The position numbers and the translations under genes are program-made. DNA of 64,000 nucleotides, from positions 1 to 64,000 of the forward strand of contig WGMO01000010.1 in the NCBI GenBank assembly GCA_016125075.1, in the 5' to 3' direction. The notes under the pieces are model-generated. The model saw only the letters and a program-made list of their open reading frames with translations, ran no database searches and was not told the DNA's origin. Within the stretch, counting starts at the first letter, position 1; each line of letters begins with the position of its first letter. This document shows, one piece after another, positions 10,090 to 48,733 of the stretch. The stretch comes from Terrimonas sp. (GTDB lineage Bacteria > Bacteroidota > Bacteroidia > Chitinophagales > Chitinophagaceae).

Positions 10090-10506
10090 ATGTATCCAGA
10101 AGAAATTGTAATTCCCATGAAGGAGGAACTCACTGAAAATGGGTTTACAGAGTTACTGACTGCCTCCGAAGTTGACGCCCAGCTTTCAAAGAAAGGCACC
10201 ACACTGGTAATGATAAATTCCGTTTGTGGTTGTTCCGCCGGTACGGCTCGTCCGGGAGTGGTCATGGCAGTCATTAACAGCACCAAAAAACCCGATTTCC
10301 TAACCACCGCTTTTGCCGGCTTTGATATTGAAGCCATCAACAAGGTGAGGGAACATCTACTACCGTATCCCCCTTCTTCTCCGGCCATTGCCCTATTCAA
10401 GGATGGTCAATTGGTTCATTTTATTGAGCGACACCAGATTGAGGGAAGACCGGCCCAGGTAATAGCCAATAACCTGATCGGGGCATTTGAAGAGCATTGT
10501 AATTAA
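10090..10506 (+). CDS. BrxA/BrxB family bacilliredoxin
   Basis: VMINSVCGCSAGTARPGVVMA (CGC active site), ALFKDGQLVHFIERHQIEGR. Confidence 0.92.
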   Translation: MYPEEIVIPMKEELTENGFTELLTASEVDAQLSKKGTTLVMINSVCGCSAGTARPGVVMAVINSTKKPDFLTTAFAGFDIEAINKVREHLLPYPPSSPAIALFKDGQLVHFIERHQIEGRPAQVIANNLIGAFEEHCN

Positions 10507-39931: not shown

Positions 39932-40714
39932 TCAATCTTCCATACTGGCTGCTACCAGTTCAGCTACATCCAGTACTGTTATCCCATCTTCCTTTTCTGC
40001 ATGCTTGATGCCATCGGTGAGCATGGTATTGCAAAAAGGACAGGCTGCCGCGATGATGGAGGAGCCGGTTGCGAGGGCTTCATCCGTTCTTTCGAAATTG
40101 ACCCTCTGACTTCCTTTCTCTTCCTCCTTGAACATCTGGGCGCCACCTGCACCGCAGCATAATCCATTACTCCTGCATCTTTTCATTTCTACCAATTCTG
40201 CGTCCAGTGCCTGAAGCACTTTCCGGGGTGCCTCATAGATTTGATTGGCCCTGCCAAGGTAACAACTATCGTGATAGGTGATCTTTTTCCCCTGAAAGGA
40301 ACCCTTTTCCTTCATCCTGATCCTGCCCTCATCAATGAGTTGCTGTAAAAAAACAGTATGATGAATAACTTCGTAGGTACCGCCCAATGCCGGGTATTCA
40401 TTTTTTAGGGTATTAAAACAATGCGGACAGGCGGTAACGATCTTCTTAATACCATAATTATTGAGTACCTGGATATTCTGGTAGGCCATCATCTGGAAAA
40501 GAAATTCATTGCCTGCCCTGCGGGCGGGATCACCTGTACACATTTCTTCCTGGCCAAGAATGGCAAAACGAATGCCGACCTTTTGAAGAATTACAGCAAA
40601 AGCCCGGGAAATTTTTTGGGCCCGCTGATCAAAACTACCTGCACAGCCTACCCAAAAAAGCACTTCCGGGCTCTCACCTTTTGTGGTCATTTCTGCTACT
40701 GTTGGTATTTGCAT
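39932..40714 (-). CDS. (Fe-S)-binding protein, heterodisulfide reductase subunit B/CCG-domain family
   Basis: FWVGCAGSFDQRA, ACPHCFNTLKNEYP, CCGAGGAQMFKEEEKG, CPFCNTMLTDGIK. Confidence 0.92.
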   Translation of the reverse strand: MQIPTVAEMTTKGESPEVLFWVGCAGSFDQRAQKISRAFAVILQKVGIRFAILGQEEMCTGDPARRAGNEFLFQMMAYQNIQVLNNYGIKKIVTACPHCFNTLKNEYPALGGTYEVIHHTVFLQQLIDEGRIRMKEKGSFQGKKITYHDSCYLGRANQIYEAPRKVLQALDAELVEMKRCRSNGLCCGAGGAQMFKEEEKGSQRVNFERTDEALATGSSIIAAACPFCNTMLTDGIKHAEKEDGITVLDVAELVAASMED

Positions 40715-40805: not shown

Positions 40806-41849
40806 ATGAAGCAAAAAAAAATATTTGAACGGCTCACCAATTGGGAATTATGGAATTTCTATGTATTGTACCTGCCCATCAGCTTCATGTGGATCTGGTA
40901 CTGCCTGAAGAGCCGTTCCTTTTGGTTCTTCAGCGCTTCCAACCCCACGATTACTTTTGGTGGTTTTGAAGGGGAAGGTAAAAAAGAAATGTATGACCAA
41001 CTACCTCCCGAACATGTACCCCGCACGATATATATATTGCATGATATGCCGTTTGAAGAAGTCGTCAGCAGGATCAGCGGGGCGGGATTTGATTATCCTT
41101 TTATTGTAAAACCGGATGTCGGCATGAAGGGTATCCTGTTTCGGAAAATTGAAAACCAGGACCAGCTTAAAAAATACCACGAGCGGATTCCTGTGGAATA
41201 TATTGTTCAGGACCTTGTTGAACTACCTGTAGAACTGAGTGTTTTTTATTACCGGATGCCCCACAAACAAAAGGGTACGGTCAGTGGATTTATCTACAAA
41301 GAATTATTACAGGTTACCGGAAATGGCCGATCCACTTTACAGCAACTTGTACAGGAACATCCAAGGGCAAAATTCAGGATGGAGGAAATGGAGCATAAAC
41401 ACGGGCACCGGTTTGACAGGATCATACCGGAAGGAGAGATCTTCTATCTTTCTTATGCCGGCAATCATAACCGCGGGGCCCATTTTACCAACCTGCACAA
41501 AGAAATCGATGAAGACCTTCACCGGGTATTTGATACCCTGAGTCACTATTCCAGGCATTTCTATTATGGTCGTTATGATATCAAAACAAGCTCCATCGAA
41601 GCTTTGAAAAAAGGTGAGGATTTCTATATCCTGGAATTTAACGGTTGTGGGGCAGAACCCAACCATATCTATGACTGCGGGATGAGCATCTGGCAGGCTT
41701 ACCGTGAAATTCTGAAACACTGGAAGGCTTTGTACCAGATCAGCCGTTATAACCATAAAAACGGCACACCGTACTGGCCTTTTTTAAAAGGGTACCGATT
41801 CTTAAATGCTTCCAAAAAGCATTTCCGTTTACTGGAACAATATGACTAA
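40806..41849 (+). CDS. membrane-anchored ATP-grasp family protein (paralog 1)
   Basis: N-terminal hydrophobic segment FYVLYLPISFMWIWYCLKSRSFWFF; YPFIVKPDVGMKG, GNGRSTLQQLV, GNHNRGAHF, GRYDIK, ILEFNGCGAEP; ATG at 40806 in frame with the 40764 ORF. Confidence 0.85.
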   Translation: MKQKKIFERLTNWELWNFYVLYLPISFMWIWYCLKSRSFWFFSASNPTITFGGFEGEGKKEMYDQLPPEHVPRTIYILHDMPFEEVVSRISGAGFDYPFIVKPDVGMKGILFRKIENQDQLKKYHERIPVEYIVQDLVELPVELSVFYYRMPHKQKGTVSGFIYKELLQVTGNGRSTLQQLVQEHPRAKFRMEEMEHKHGHRFDRIIPEGEIFYLSYAGNHNRGAHFTNLHKEIDEDLHRVFDTLSHYSRHFYYGRYDIKTSSIEALKKGEDFYILEFNGCGAEPNHIYDCGMSIWQAYREILKHWKALYQISRYNHKNGTPYWPFLKGYRFLNASKKHFRLLEQYD

Positions 41850-41905
41850 ACAGTAGGGGACAATCTGGTTTTTTATCTTTAAATTGCTTGCATACTTTTT
41901 CTTTT

Positions 41906-42607
41906 ATGCCTGCTGACGATCAATTCCTGCTGATCCGTAATTATGATCTATGGTCACAGATCACCGACGAAGAATATGAAGAACTGAACCTGGTCCATCA
42001 TTTTACAGAAGCCCGAAAAGGCGAATACATTTATTTTGACTCGCATCACCATAATAAACTTTATTTTATCAAGGGGGGCTATGTAAAAATCGGATTCATT
42101 GATGCTGAAGGAAATGAGATCATCAAGGAGATCATCCAGGAAGGGGAAATTTTTGGCCAGTTCAGTCTGGAAAAAAATAACCTGAACGGTGAGTTTGCCC
42201 GGGCGCATAAAGGAGATGTGAGCCTATGCGCTTTTAACATCGAGGATTTTGAAAAACTATTAAAGAAAAAACCGGATATCGCCATCAAATACAGCAAGCA
42301 GGTAGGACAAAAACTCCGGAACGCAGAGTTCCGGCTTGTCAATATGCTGAATAAGGATGTCCGTTCAAGATTACTGGGCTTTTTTTATCATCTTACCGTC
42401 ATGAATGGTTATGATGGAACGAAGTCCTCCTTTGCGATTGAAAATTTTCTTACCCACGAAGATATCGCCCGACTGATCGGATCTGCCCGGCAGACGGTTA
42501 CCACCTTCATCAACCAACTGGAAGATGAAGGGTTAATCAGGATCAGCAGGCAGGAGATCCTGATACCGGATGTTAAAAAAATTCAAAAGATGGTAATTGT
42601 CACCTGA
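41906..42607 (+). CDS. Crp/Fnr family transcriptional regulator
   Basis: cNMP-like domain (EYIYFDSHHHNKLYFIKGGYVKIGFIDAEGNE) and HTH LTHEDIARLIGSARQTVTTFINQLEDEGLI. Confidence 0.9.
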   Translation: MPADDQFLLIRNYDLWSQITDEEYEELNLVHHFTEARKGEYIYFDSHHHNKLYFIKGGYVKIGFIDAEGNEIIKEIIQEGEIFGQFSLEKNNLNGEFARAHKGDVSLCAFNIEDFEKLLKKKPDIAIKYSKQVGQKLRNAEFRLVNMLNKDVRSRLLGFFYHLTVMNGYDGTKSSFAIENFLTHEDIARLIGSARQTVTTFINQLEDEGLIRISRQEILIPDVKKIQKMVIVT

Positions 42608-42661: not shown

Positions 42662-43159
42662 TTGAAATTGGCATTCCCCGATAATAGACACATTTTGCTG
42701 AAACCCGGATTCGTTTTATGTTTGATGCTGGGAGTTTATCTGAGCCCGGCACAGGATAAAACTGTTTTGCGTAAGCAGCAATTTAACCTGGAGGATGGCC
42801 TGGCAATACAGGGATATGACCCTGTAGCTTATTTTACATTTCACAAAGCCATAAAAGGCAGTAAGGACAAAGCGGTTTTCCACCAGGGCGTCATCTATTA
42901 CTTCTCGACAGATGCCAATAAGGAGCTCTTTAAAAAGGATCCCATGAAATATGAACCCGCCTACGGAGGATGGTGTGCCTACGCAATGGGCAATAGCGGG
43001 GAAAAGGTCAGCATCGACCCCAAAACATTCAAGATCATAGACGGAAAGCTTTACCTTTTTTATAACCGGTTCTTTCAAAATACGCTAACCAGCTGGAACA
43101 AAGATGAACCCCATCTGAAAGAATCGGCCGATCAAAACTGGACAAAATTTTATCAATAA
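42662..43159 (+). CDS. YHS domain-containing protein, exported
   Basis: LAIQGYDPVAYFTFHKAIKGSKDKAVFHQGVIYYFSTDANKELFKKDPMKYEPAYGGWCAYAMG. Confidence 0.9.
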   Translation: MKLAFPDNRHILLKPGFVLCLMLGVYLSPAQDKTVLRKQQFNLEDGLAIQGYDPVAYFTFHKAIKGSKDKAVFHQGVIYYFSTDANKELFKKDPMKYEPAYGGWCAYAMGNSGEKVSIDPKTFKIIDGKLYLFYNRFFQNTLTSWNKDEPHLKESADQNWTKFYQ

Positions 43160-43168
43160 ACCAAAACA

Positions 43169-43579
43169 ATGAAAACAGCCAACATCATTACCTGGATCGC
43201 CAGGCTCCTGGCAGCCCTGATCTTATTACAAACCCTCTATTTTAAATTTTCGGGTGCCCCGGAATCGGTATACATTTTTGAACGATTACATGCTGAACCC
43301 TGGGGCCGGATCGGGAGTGGGATAGTAGAGTTGATCGCTGCCGTGCTGATACTCATCCCTGCCACCACCCGATGGGGTGCTTTGTTGGGAATGGGGGTAA
43401 TCAGTGGTGCAATCATTTCTCATCTCACCGTACTGGGCATTTCTGTAAAAAATTCGGATGGTACTGAAGATGGGGGCCTGTTGTTCATTTATGCTATCAT
43501 CGTATTCATTTGCTGTTTTTACCTGGTATGGATCAACAGGAAAAGAATACCGGTCATCCAGTCATTTTTTCACAAATAA
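43169..43579 (+). CDS. DoxX-like membrane protein
   Basis: Four-TM pattern; RLLAALILLQTLYFKFSGAPESV...RIGSGIVELIAAVLILIP..RWGALLGMGVISGAI. Confidence 0.85.
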   Translation: MKTANIITWIARLLAALILLQTLYFKFSGAPESVYIFERLHAEPWGRIGSGIVELIAAVLILIPATTRWGALLGMGVISGAIISHLTVLGISVKNSDGTEDGGLLFIYAIIVFICCFYLVWINRKRIPVIQSFFHK

Positions 43580-43686
43580 TCGGGCCGGCTTAGCATCCAA
43601 TGACATTCCATTTTCGTAAGTGGAACCTGTAGACCTGGATTTTTCAGTTGATAAATTTGTATTTTTTTACATATTTTTTATTTTCA

Positions 43687-44208
43687 ATGCCATCAGCAAA
43701 TTTGCCATCCATGCTTCAACAAACCCTGCAACAAGTTTTTACACAACTGTCCGGTACCCTCAGTATGATCAGCCAGGACCAATATATCCACCCGTCCCGT
43801 GTTTTGTCCAATGCAACCATCGGACAACATGTACGCCATATCATCGAATTGTTTCAGTGCCTGGAAACAGGATATGAAAGCGGGATTGTGAACTATGAAA
43901 AAAGAAAGCGGGACAGCCAGATCGAACAGCAGAAGGCAATGGCTGAACAACTGATTGCAGGCATCTATAATCAACTTGGACGCCCGAATAAGGATTTGAT
44001 CCTCGAAGGTTGTTATGATGGCCCTGTTTCGGAGACCCTACATATTCATACCAATTATGACAGGGAACTGGCCTATAACCTGGAACATACCATCCACCAT
44101 ATGGCCCTGATCCGGATCGGTATTGAAGAAGTAGCCCAGCTTGCTTTGCCGGAAGCATTCGGCGTAGCGCCCTCGACCATCAAACACAGAAAAGAATGTG
44201 CACAGTAA
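43687..44208 (+). CDS. DinB-superfamily protein
   Basis: TIGQHVRHIIELFQCLE...NLEHTIHHMALIRIGI (His metal-ligand pattern). Confidence 0.85.
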   Translation: MPSANLPSMLQQTLQQVFTQLSGTLSMISQDQYIHPSRVLSNATIGQHVRHIIELFQCLETGYESGIVNYEKRKRDSQIEQQKAMAEQLIAGIYNQLGRPNKDLILEGCYDGPVSETLHIHTNYDRELAYNLEHTIHHMALIRIGIEEVAQLALPEAFGVAPSTIKHRKECAQ

Positions 44209-44927
44209 CCTATATACCTGTTGGTGATAAAACTTATCTCACTTCTAACCGGGATGAAAAAAAGTGGCGGGAAACGGCCCTGCCTCCCGCCTTGTATGCA
44301 CACAATACGGGTCAAATCCTTTATCCCAGGGATGGCCAAGCAGGTGGAACCTGGATGGCGGTTCATGAAAACGGAAACGCAATTGTATTATTGAATGGAG
44401 GATTCGAGAACCATCATCCAACACCCCCTTATCTCAAAAGCAGGGGGCTTGTAATACTGGAGCTATTACAAACATCAGACCCTTACCAATATTTCAGGTC
44501 CTGCAACCTCGAAAACATTGAGCCTTTCACCATCATCATTTTATCGGCCGGTTCGTTATTTGAATGCCGCTGGAATGCAGAAAGAAAATTTGCCAAACCC
44601 CTGGATAAGCATATACCCCATATCTGGTCATCGGTTACCCTGTATTCACCCGATATCATCCGAAAAAGAGAAAACTGGTTCCGCCAATGGCTGAATACAC
44701 AAGAGGAATTCAATCTGGATACAATTTTGGATTTTCACCGGTTTTATGGTGATGGGGATCCTTATAATGATTTTTTAATGAACCGGGATGGAGAAATCTT
44801 TACGGTCAGTATCGCAGCAGCGGAAATAACATCTGTTTCCGCCCGCATGTTTTACCTGGACCTGATATCCAACCAGGCCAGTGTCCAAGCTATCAGATTT
44901 TCGAAAGAACCTGTTACCGGCTTATGA
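44196..44927 (+). CDS. NRDE family protein (TANGO2-like, predicted Ntn-hydrolase fold)
   Basis: MCTVTYIPVGDKTYLTSNRDEKKWRE...YPRDGQAGGTWMAVHENG; Cys2 and SNRDE motif. Confidence 0.92.
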   Translation: MCTVTYIPVGDKTYLTSNRDEKKWRETALPPALYAHNTGQILYPRDGQAGGTWMAVHENGNAIVLLNGGFENHHPTPPYLKSRGLVILELLQTSDPYQYFRSCNLENIEPFTIIILSAGSLFECRWNAERKFAKPLDKHIPHIWSSVTLYSPDIIRKRENWFRQWLNTQEEFNLDTILDFHRFYGDGDPYNDFLMNRDGEIFTVSIAAAEITSVSARMFYLDLISNQASVQAIRFSKEPVTGL

Positions 44928-46003
44928 ATGCAGTAAAACGGATTCTTCACAAACCCATTTTCATTCAGCTATTGCATTGGGAATACTGGAGTATGCCTTT
45001 TGTATATTTCCCAACCTATTTCTATTTTCTATGGCTTTGTATCAGGAGTGGCTGGAAATATTTTTTTACTGCCGCAGACCCCCTGATCACTTACGGTGGT
45101 TTCCTGATGGAGTCGAAAAAAGAGATCTACGATTCCTTACCCACCGGTTATTACCCTAAAACACTTTTTTTTAAGGCAGGAACAGATCCCGGGGCAGTGA
45201 ACAGCGACGTCCAAAGATTTGGATTACAATACCCGCTGATTGTAAAGCCCGATATCGGAATGCGGGGGCTCGCGGCTAAAAAAGTGGAACAAGTTGAAGA
45301 CCTGATGAAATTTATACCGGTCTTCACCATTGATTTCCTGATCCAGGAATTTGTGCCTTATAAAAAGGAAGCCGGTTTTTTTTATTACCGCTATCCCGGT
45401 GAACAGGAGGGACGACTCAGCGGTATCGTATCCAAGGAATTCCTTGAATTAGTGGGGGACGGGAAAAGCACCCTGCTGGAATTACTGCAATCCGACAAAA
45501 GGTTTATTCTGCAGATACCCTCCCTGAAAAAAGAATATAAGGATGAATTAGATCATGTGTTGAAGATGGGCGAATCCAGGGAACTGGTGCCCTATGGTAA
45601 TCATGCAAGAGGTGCCAAATTCATTGATGATAGTCATCTGATTGACGCAGAACTGACCGCTATGATTCATTCCTTTTGTCTGCAGGTGCCCGAATTTTAT
45701 TATGGCCGCCTGGATATCCGATACGATAACTGGGAAGACCTGCGGAAAGGTGAAAAATTTTCTGTCATTGAATTAAACGGTGCGGGAAGTGAGCCGACGC
45801 ATATGTATGACCCCCGTCATTCCCTTTTTTTTGCATGGAAGGAGATAATCAGGCACTTTAAAATACTCCATACCATTTCGCAACGCAACCATAAACGGGG
45901 CTTTAACTATATGAATTGGTCAGAAGGATCCAGGATGTTCCGGGCAAGCCGCAGGTATTCAAAACGGTTACGGGCTGTTCACGAGTCGTTACTGCACTTA
46001 TGA
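44924..46003 (+). CDS. membrane-anchored ATP-grasp family protein (paralog 2)
   Basis: Paralogous to 40806-41849: YPLIVKPDIGMRG, GDGKSTLLELL, GNHARGAKF, GRLDIRYD, VIELNGAGSEPTHMYD; ATGA overlap with NRDE gene. Confidence 0.87.
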   Translation: MNAVKRILHKPIFIQLLHWEYWSMPFVYFPTYFYFLWLCIRSGWKYFFTAADPLITYGGFLMESKKEIYDSLPTGYYPKTLFFKAGTDPGAVNSDVQRFGLQYPLIVKPDIGMRGLAAKKVEQVEDLMKFIPVFTIDFLIQEFVPYKKEAGFFYYRYPGEQEGRLSGIVSKEFLELVGDGKSTLLELLQSDKRFILQIPSLKKEYKDELDHVLKMGESRELVPYGNHARGAKFIDDSHLIDAELTAMIHSFCLQVPEFYYGRLDIRYDNWEDLRKGEKFSVIELNGAGSEPTHMYDPRHSLFFAWKEIIRHFKILHTISQRNHKRGFNYMNWSEGSRMFRASRRYSKRLRAVHESLLHL

Positions 46004-46041
46004 CATTTTCAATTACCTGATTCATTCCCTATTTTTGATCC

Positions 46042-46734
46042 ATGCATCCCCTGGTCAAAGTTTTTTTTGTCGGCATGCTGGTCAGCTTTCTTGGGTCACT
46101 CCCCCTGGGGACACTCAATGTGGCGGCTATGCAGATATCCGTGTCCGATGGTATTTCACCCGCACTTTGGTTTTCCCTGGGTTCCCTTACAGCTGAAATC
46201 GTTTATGTGCGTTTATCCCTGGTGGCGATGGACTGGGTAAGAAAACAGGAAAAGATTTTCCGGGCACTGGAATGGATCACGGTCCTGATTGTTACGGCGC
46301 TCGCCATATCCAGTTTTTATGCGGCCTTACACCCCTCGGTGGGTCAAAATGTGATCCTGAGCAGTACCCTGCACCGGTTCTGGCTGGGTCTGACTATGAG
46401 TGCCCTGAATCCCGTACAGATCCCGTTCTGGTTTGGATGGAGCACGGTTTTGTTCACGAAAAATATATTGCAACCCAAAAACAGTCATTACAATATTTAT
46501 ATCATGGGGATAGGCCTGGGAACCCTACTGGGAAATTCTGTATTTATTTTTGGAGGGCAGGTCATTGCCGACCGTCTGAAAAACAACCAGCATATTTTAA
46601 ATTGGGTAATCGGGGGTATCTTTTCTGTTACGGCCCTGATCCAGCTATGGAGAATTTTCATAAAAAAAACTACGATGCACCAGATTGAACATCCCGAAGA
46701 AATCACCCATGGGATTGAGAAAAATATCCATTAA
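46042..46734 (+). CDS. LysE-type translocator family membrane protein
   Basis: SFLGSLPLGTLNVAAMQISVSDGISPALWFSLGSLTAEIVYV; 6 TM pattern. Confidence 0.82.
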   Translation: MHPLVKVFFVGMLVSFLGSLPLGTLNVAAMQISVSDGISPALWFSLGSLTAEIVYVRLSLVAMDWVRKQEKIFRALEWITVLIVTALAISSFYAALHPSVGQNVILSSTLHRFWLGLTMSALNPVQIPFWFGWSTVLFTKNILQPKNSHYNIYIMGIGLGTLLGNSVFIFGGQVIADRLKNNQHILNWVIGGIFSVTALIQLWRIFIKKTTMHQIEHPEEITHGIEKNIH

Positions 46735-47425: not shown

Positions 47426-48733
47426 TTATATCTCCGTCACCCACTTGTTTCTTTCATCAGGGCTGAATTTCCAGGGAGCAAAATTATTCTCAACATTACT
47501 GAACATTGCATTCCATTCCTGTGGGGCATTACTGTCTTCCATAATGAGTGAGCGTCGCATTTCAAGGATGATTTCCAGGGGTGAAATGGATACGGGGCAG
47601 GCTTCCACGCAGGCATTACAGGTAGTACAGGCCCTTAGCTCTTCTATACTGATATGATCAAAAAGTGTTTTTCCATCATCTTTGAATTGTCCGTTCCGGT
47701 CAATATTGCGGCCAACTGTTTCCATGCGGTCGCGGGTATCCATCATGATCTTTCGGGGTGACAGCAATTTTCCTGTTTGGTTGGCAGGGCAGGCTGCAGA
47801 ACAGCGGCCACATTCCGTACAGCTGTAGGCATCCATTAAACTTTTCCAGCTCAGGTCAAATATATCTTTTGCCCCAAATTTTCCAGGGGTACCGGCATCA
47901 GCGGGTGCCAGTTCCGGTTGCATAGCATATAAAACCTCATTTTGAATACTCGGCATATTCTTCATTTCACCCTGTGGCGCCAGTCTTGCATAATATGCAT
48001 TGGGGAAGGCCAGCAGTATATGCAGGTGCTTTGAATAAGGCAGGTAATTTAAAAAAGCAAAAATGCCGGCAATATGTAGCCACCAGCAGGCCCTTTCCAC
48101 ACTTACCAGCGATGAGGCGGAAAGATGCTGAAGGGAAGGTGCCCATAAACCGGAAAGTAAAAAATTACCGGTATCATGATAATGGATATGACCCTGTAAC
48201 TGAAGCGCACGGTCGGCGCTGTTCATGGTCAGAAAAAGCGCCATCAGGATGATCTCCGTGATCAGAATATAATTGGCATCACTCCGGGGCCAGCCGTCCA
48301 GGTCTTTGCTGACGAACCTTTGAATTTTAAGTACATTTCTACGGATAAGAAATAGGACACAGGCCACCAAAACAAGGGCCGCCAATATCTCAAAAGTATT
48401 GATCAGGAAAGTATAGAAACTTCCTAGCGGGGATGCAAATAGCCGGTGTTTGCCCGTCAGGCCGTCGAGGATGATCTCCAGCACTTCAATATTGATAATG
48501 ACAAATCCAGCATAAACAAAAAAGTGCATGATGGCAACGAGGGGATTTTTGAACATTTTTTTCTGACCGAAAGCCAGCAGCAGGACATTTCGCCAGCGCT
48601 GCCCGGGTTGATCATTGATGGATTCGTCCTTTCCCAGGAGGATGTTACGGCGAATTTGTCTGACCTTTTTGGCAAAAAGGAATACCGCAACAGCGGTAAG
48701 GATGAAAAATAATATTTGTTCAAGAAATTGCAT
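47426..48733 (-). CDS. membrane (Fe-S) protein with 4Fe-4S dicluster domain, NarI-like TM region
   Basis: CTECGRCSAACPANQTGKLLSP and CTTCNACVEACPVSISPLEIILEMRRSLIM. Confidence 0.93.
   Translation of the reverse strand: MQFLEQILFFILTAVAVFLFAKKVRQIRRNILLGKDESINDQPGQRWRNVLLLAFGQKKMFKNPLVAIMHFFVYAGFVIINIEVLEIILDGLTGKHRLFASPLGSFYTFLINTFEILAALVLVACVLFLIRRNVLKIQRFVSKDLDGWPRSDANYILITEIILMALFLTMNSADRALQLQGHIHYHDTGNFLLSGLWAPSLQHLSASSLVSVERACWWLHIAGIFAFLNYLPYSKHLHILLAFPNAYYARLAPQGEMKNMPSIQNEVLYAMQPELAPADAGTPGKFGAKDIFDLSWKSLMDAYSCTECGRCSAACPANQTGKLLSPRKIMMDTRDRMETVGRNIDRNGQFKDDGKTLFDHISIEELRACTTCNACVEACPVSISPLEIILEMRRSLIMEDSNAPQEWNAMFSNVENNFAPWKFSPDERNKWVTEI

Follow-up and report, generated by a model that had tools for sequence, protein, structure and literature searches.

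The acyltransferases OlsB and OlsA make amino-acid lipids, and the product of the pair is an N-acyl, O-acyl amino acid. As reviewed, this two-step pathway contains no ATP-grasp, DinB or NRDE step, and the joining of a fatty acid to an amino acid by an ATP-grasp enzyme has a precedent in Legionella acyl-histidine (PMC11631085). Glycine-serine lipids occur in Bacteroidota, Chitinophaga included (PMC10191378, PMC8433624), and the pathway to one of them, flavolipin, was called unknown in a 2023 review (PMC10191378). Among proteins of the NRDE/TANGO2 family, HtpA, a bacterial TANGO2 of Shewanella, binds heme, supports cytochrome c biogenesis and can be replaced by its closest homologues only (PMC10470608). 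A structure study of human TANGO2 proposed a cysteine N-terminal nucleophile (Ntn) hydrolase of fatty-acid derivatives with an active site of Cys2, Asn25, Arg26, Asp27, Asn75, Asn157 and Lys166, and deemed the heme contacts in the crystal nonspecific (PMC13044924). Here we analysed a stretch of 64,000 nucleotides from Terrimonas sp. (contig WGMO01000010.1, positions 1 to 64,000; hereafter the window), in which genes for a DinB-superfamily protein, an NRDE/TANGO2-like protein, an ATP-grasp ligase (ATP-grasp 2) and a LysE-family transporter follow one another (Table 1). Our tentative reading, which we hold at somewhat less than an even chance, is that this module combines a membrane-associated amide ligase with a Cys Ntn hydrolase acting on lipo-amino acids, a substrate class that would be the best-supported, if unproven, candidate.

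The lipid connection comes from distant relatives of the module. A search of 393 genomes of the same phylum yielded ATP-grasp matches in other families inside open reading frames (ORFs) of 810-910 aa, and in all 20 long-ORF loci sampled from these families the long ORF lay directly downstream of acyltransferase genes. OlsB-like and OlsA-like genes were both present in 19 of the 20 (only the OlsB-like gene was detected in L189), and the DinB type of the module stood between the acyltransferases and the long ORF in 14. In three scanned loci the acyltransferases belonged to PF13444 and PF01553 and in NCBIfam matched OlsB and OlsA best, at 120-156 bits and thus under the equivalog cut-offs of 300-350; those of the other 17 loci were identified by profiles made from these three. 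Three long ORFs (L182, L185 and L190) were scanned for domains. Pfam recognised VTT/DedA in L182 and L185, and NCBIfam did so in L182 and L190; L185 and L190 also have an alpha/beta-hydrolase domain, while the N-terminal segment of L182 gave no hydrolase match. The ATP-grasp was the C-terminal part of all ten long ORFs with domain positions, and the hydrolase/DedA/ATP-grasp architecture of the remaining long ORFs is extrapolated from ORF length and position. As a side observation, the loci L182-L191 and L206-L215 read as operons of OlsB, OlsA, in part DinB, and an ORF made of a hydrolase-like segment, DedA and ATP-grasp, and this ORF resembles a lipid-modifying enzyme. Outside the family of the window (f1), a strong match to PF13444, which stands for OlsB/OlsF-type genes, was present in 53 of 60 genomes bearing the ATP-grasp in comparison to 94 of 319 others (Fisher p 6e-18, uncorrected for phylogeny). 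This link to OlsB/OlsA-type operons suggests that the product is bound to lipid and is not a small soluble compound. The sequence-only reading of the window had missed it, as it had the fused genes and the LysE that recurs as a partner of the paralogous ATP-grasp.

The module itself is a conserved unit. The four ORFs and both overlaps, one of 13 nt between DinB and NRDE and one of ATGA (44924-44927) between the NRDE stop and the ATP-grasp 2 start, were exactly as the sequence-only reading had given them. That reading would have been refuted by a gene order confined to close relatives, but the order is conserved across several families. Neighbourhoods were compared in 80 loci (the named loci) chosen because they matched the ATP-grasp best, and the fractions therefore describe its close clade: NRDE adjoined or was fused with ATP-grasp in 78, DinB, NRDE and ATP-grasp were contiguous in 75, LysE adjoined ATP-grasp in 48, and all four genes stood together in 48. 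Genera with the module include Niastella, Flavihumibacter, Longitalea, Lacibacter, Mucilaginibacter, Pedobacter and Flavobacterium, among others, and in Dyadobacter (L144) DinB is set apart by about 1.9 kb. NRDE and ATP-grasp form a single ORF in six loci (L045, L046, L048, L107, L123 and L132), Mucilaginibacter and, with L132, Pedobacter included. In one locus a single 565-aa ORF joins LysE with an ATP-grasp from the paralogous clade (L051:7229-8926, minus strand). A longer ATP-grasp ORF in L062 was rejected as a transporter fusion, its extra part being MORN repeats.

The 13-nt overlap (ATGTGCACAGTAA) encodes the end of DinB (..CAQ*) and the start of NRDE (MCTV) in two frames, so that the codon of the NRDE catalytic cysteine sits within the last DinB codons. 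It recurs exactly in 82 of 90 distinct loci, which places it beyond chance. The overlap is in part self-preserving because the NRDE start codons contain the DinB stop, and it shows long linkage, not in itself regulation. The operon is real, ancient and, so far as a search of the open-access literature shows, undescribed: searches for ATP-grasp with DinB, ornithine lipid or DedA, or for DinB with ornithine lipid, returned no account of such a unit.

ATP-grasp 2 is a divergent member of its superfamily that stayed under the curated Pfam cut-offs (ATP-grasp_3 and RimK both scored below). Its profile matched the structures of CphA2, CphA and GshAB with E values from 3e-9 (CphA2) to 1e-5, and the best PDB matches found by Foldseek with its AlphaFold2 model (predicted local distance difference test, pLDDT, 96.5) were CphA2 (E 1.9e-10), CphA1 and GshAB, followed by D-Ala-D-Ala ligases (Ddl). 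The family assignment is clear despite the low Pfam scores. Residues K108, E149, R262, D264, E283 and N285 were invariant in 36 of 36 members, and the D..E.N metal-site pattern was retained in the alignment to CphA2. The sequence-only reading had named a degenerate active site as a finding that would refute its proposal; with these six residues invariant, the proposal is not refuted on this count. Residues 24-41 form a conserved, aromatic-rich hydrophobic N-terminal helix. ATP-grasp 2 and the upstream ATP-grasp 1 belong to one family in which a tree gives two supported clades, and in relatives ATP-grasp 1 often has a LysE partner of its own.

The NRDE protein matched PF05742 at 53 bits (Pfam cut-off 22.6) and represents a divergent subfamily, as canonical members in relatives scored 216-257 bits. 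Its structure model (pLDDT 90.4) best matched human TANGO2 (8sv7/9bwa), followed by a Chromobacterium protein, isopenicillin N acyltransferase, penicillin V acylase and bile-salt hydrolases. Cys2, R19, D20, E21 and N67 were invariant, N18 was kept in 19 of 21 sequences, and a near-invariant Arg158 may stand in for TANGO2 Lys166. The closest folds of the two proteins are peptide-bond-forming ATP-grasps and Cys Ntn hydrolases that cleave amides or transfer acyl groups, which counts in favour of the lipo-amino-acid proposal, and Cys Ntn enzymes that cleave or form lipid amides are a further precedent. Both family membership and active-site residues give good support to the view that the unit carries out amide chemistry.

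The window's DinB protein on its own had no DinB match in Pfam, and DinB_2 (PF12867) was matched by 17 of 21 aligned orthologues (best 6e-6). H48, H51, H134, H137 and H138 are invariant among them; of these, H134, H138 and either H48 or H51 would make up the usual DinB metal triad. The subfamily is specific, being present in 34 of 101 relatives, most of which have several other DinB candidates, and the ATP-grasp was present in 30 of these 34 (Fisher p 6e-11, uncorrected for phylogeny). In two genomes (G066:C227:4394-5384 and G024:C268:8315-9153) DinB adjoins NRDE and no ATP-grasp was found in the genome, although the G024 contig may end there. The LysE protein matched PF01810 at 59 bits (Pfam cut-off 25.6).

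We propose that the substrates of the unit are lipids that contain amino acids and that it acts on them at the inner membrane. The aromatic N-terminal helix would keep the ATP-grasp at the membrane surface, a task that LysE or DedA would fulfil in relatives where they are fused to it; we draw this placement from the hydrophobic helix and from the fusions. The enzyme would activate a carboxylate by phosphorylation and then join it to an amine. In the simplest case, the head group of an N-acyl amino acid would receive an amino acid or an amine. The free carboxylate of the OlsB/OlsA product could serve in this reaction; alternatively, an amino acid could be joined to a side-chain amine. With its N-terminal Cys, NRDE would remove by hydrolysis, or transfer, an acyl or amide group from the compound so formed. 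DinB would modify the head group as a metal-dependent enzyme, and the amino acid or the product would cross the membrane through LysE. The physical linkage, the fusions, the conserved residues, the folds and the OlsB-OlsA linkage in distant families are observed, whereas we infer these reactions, their substrate and the direction of transport, and likewise that the window's version handles the same kind of substrate.

Several observations weigh against this proposal. LysE proteins usually export soluble amino acids. The window's own genome (G000) had no PF13444 N-acyltransferase match, and in its family none of the 12 ATP-grasp-bearing genomes, the window's included, had a strong one; the lipid link therefore rests on distant relatives, and in this family the substrate would be made differently or the role would have shifted. 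NRDE is not part of the distant OlsB-OlsA operons, and NRDE and LysE in the window may stand where relatives have the hydrolase and DedA. Finally, the position of the second oxyanion residue of human TANGO2, Asn157, is a serine (Ser145/Ser146) in all 21 NRDE sequences. With Cys2, Arg19, Asp20 and Asn67 unchanged throughout and Asn18 in nearly all sequences, the NRDE protein is a predicted Cys Ntn hydrolase for which catalysis with a variant oxyanion site is plausible.

A rival explanation is a soluble amide pathway, close to the sequence-only reading, in which the ATP-grasp would join a small carboxylate to an amine, NRDE would trim the product, DinB would modify it and LysE would export a soluble amino-acid derivative. 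The soluble amino-acid substrates of the nearest ATP-grasp relatives (CphA and GshAB), the family of the transporter and the lack of OlsB in the window's genome agree with it, whereas the conserved aromatic helix, the membrane domains (DedA or LysE) to which ATP-grasp is fused and the distant loci in which it is linked to OlsB-OlsA do not, and we regard it as possible but on the whole unlikely. What stands of the earlier proposal of an amide-ligase, hydrolase and export module is the conserved unit of an amide-forming ATP-grasp, an Ntn-fold NRDE and LysE; the link to aminolipid operons points away from its small soluble product.

The four-gene unit drawn by the sequence-only reading is too small, as the upstream genes belong to a recurrent neighbourhood: the genes for ATP-grasp 1, a Crp/Fnr-type regulator, a YHS-domain protein and a DoxX-family protein precede DinB on the same strand and recur alongside the module. 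Intergenic gaps are small from ATP-grasp 1 on, the largest (107 nt) being that before DinB, where an in-frame TTG at 43648 lies ahead of the DinB ATG.

Table 1. Coordinates of the module and its recurrent neighbours in the window.
Feature	Position	Strand	Basis and remarks
DinB-superfamily gene	43687-44208	+	ORF list; ATG start; 173 aa
NRDE/TANGO2-family gene	44196-44927	+	ORF list; 243 aa; PF05742
DinB/NRDE overlap ATGTGCACAGTAA	44196-44208	+	13 nt, read directly
ATP-grasp ligase 2 gene	44924-46003	+	ORF list; 359 aa; profile and model
LysE-family membrane transporter gene	46042-46734	+	ORF list; 230 aa; PF01810
ATP-grasp 1, paralogue of ATP-grasp 2	40806-41849	+	37% identity; tree
Crp/Fnr-type regulator, recurrent neighbour	41888-42607	+	
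YHS-domain protein, recurrent neighbour upstream of DinB	42662-43159	+	NCBIfam YHS_seleno_dom, 135 bits, cut-off 70
DoxX-family membrane protein, recurrent neighbour upstream of DinB	43169-43579	+	domain scan

A CCG-domain (HdrB-like) gene (39932-40714, minus strand) and a 4Fe-4S membrane protein gene (47426-48733, minus strand) bracket the block from ATP-grasp 1 to LysE, which looks as if inserted between a redox gene pair, and the same flanking occurs in several relatives (L033, L044, L050, L058). At L081:3025-4720 and similar loci, genes for an outer-membrane beta-barrel, a DM13 protein and a YceI protein of the isoprenoid-binding type lie between DoxX and DinB, an arrangement not seen in the window, and these neighbours suggest a redox or membrane-stress setting. 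Scans of the DNA found no promoter signal. The -7/-33 Bacteroidetes promoter motif occurs upstream of DinB (TAAATTTG at 43652), but showed no enrichment over 86 loci (11 in comparison to a shuffle mean of 7.3 and maximum of 14); sigma-70 and terminator scans gave counts close to shuffles, and base composition showed no anomaly (GC 0.43-0.45). An anti-phage role was dropped, as PADLOC matched neither the paralogous ATP-grasp nor any of the four proteins.

Another rival is heme trafficking, in which NRDE would be a heme carrier of the HtpA/TANGO2 type and its neighbours would serve heme or redox homeostasis. Tyr108 of HtpA is tied to heme binding. The heme binding and cytochrome c role of HtpA (PMC10470608) and the recurrence of the redox-type neighbours YHS, DoxX, YceI, DM13 and Crp/Fnr favour such a role, which is nevertheless distinctly improbable: it leaves the ATP-grasp fusion unexplained, heme binding by human TANGO2 was judged nonspecific (PMC13044924), HtpA accepts only its closest homologues as replacements (PMC10470608), and NRDE belongs to a divergent subfamily. 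Equally doubtful is a loose stress-response cluster in which the genes would share regulation with Crp/Fnr, YHS and DoxX and have separate biochemical roles; Crp/Fnr, YHS, DoxX, YceI and DM13 are indeed recurrent neighbours, but the gene fusions, the near-invariant 13-nt overlap and the co-occurrence of DinB and ATP-grasp, also in operons lacking YHS or DoxX, speak for a closer bond. A low-molecular-weight thiol pathway of the bacillithiol type with DinB as a thiol S-transferase, a link that the sequence-only reading had suggested and that we reject as a specific one, is very improbable, for although the DinB superfamily includes thiol S-transferases and the window's genome has BshC and a bacilliredoxin-like ORF, no thiol gene was recognised beside the module, BshC occurs in 95 of 101 relatives irrespective of the module, and it was not found in G060 (a draft only 91% complete), whose module is the closest with a 65% identical ATP-grasp. 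The ORF in question (10090-10506, plus strand) encodes 138 aa with a CGC motif, consistent with a bacilliredoxin, and BshC lies elsewhere in the genome.

The lipo-amino-acid proposal has a bolder form, which we consider speculative and rather unlikely: an undescribed bacterial pathway in which a membrane-bound ATP-grasp would build an amide head group, a TANGO2-family Cys Ntn enzyme, fused to it in some species, would remove or transfer an acyl or amide group, and the pair would replace the classical N-acyltransferase in genomes lacking OlsB. If true, TANGO2 proteins would have originated as lipid-amide enzymes. Whether the product of the human disease gene TANGO2 acts as a heme carrier or as a Cys Ntn hydrolase is disputed, and the operon of a TANGO2-like gene with ATP-grasp, its natural fusions and its OlsB-OlsA-linked relatives point to a concrete, testable substrate class. 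They also provide a candidate enzyme family for the head-group amide bonds of bacterial aminolipids, whose peptide-type lipid route was still unknown in the 2023 review.

Compared with known systems, the ergothioneine enzymes EgtA, EgtB and EgtC likewise bring a ligase together with a DinB domain and a hydrolase of the Cys Ntn type, but EgtA is not an ATP-grasp of the module's kind and EgtB is a DinB-FGE fusion. We know of no NRDE or DinB partner for the Legionella acyl-histidine ATP-grasp. That enzyme is a precedent in that it joins a fatty acid to an amino acid (PMC11631085). It belongs to another Pfam ATP-grasp family (PF13535). The ATP-grasp domains of CphA/CphA2 and GshAB are the top profile and fold matches and share the D..E.N pattern, whereas ATP-grasp 2 is a 359-aa protein of ATP-grasp only, with no Mur-ligase or GshA-type domain and with an N-terminal interfacial helix of its own. 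In comparison to TANGO2 and HtpA, the NRDE protein keeps Cys2, Arg, Asp, Glu and Asn67 and the alpha-beta-beta-alpha Ntn fold, but has Ser for human Asn157 and is coupled translationally or fused to an ATP-grasp. The glycine-serine lipids flavolipin, Lipid 430 and Lipid 654 resemble the proposed product in that their synthesis needs an amide ligase on N-acyl glycine. As the GlsB-bearing, Bacteroidales-like family f38 has no strong ATP-grasp match, the ATP-grasp would not be a general flavolipin ligase, and this specific function is weakened. The window's genome differs from OlsB/OlsA synthesis of ornithine, glycine and glutamine lipids in having no OlsB, while in distant families DinB and the same ATP-grasp family stand beside OlsB-OlsA-like genes.

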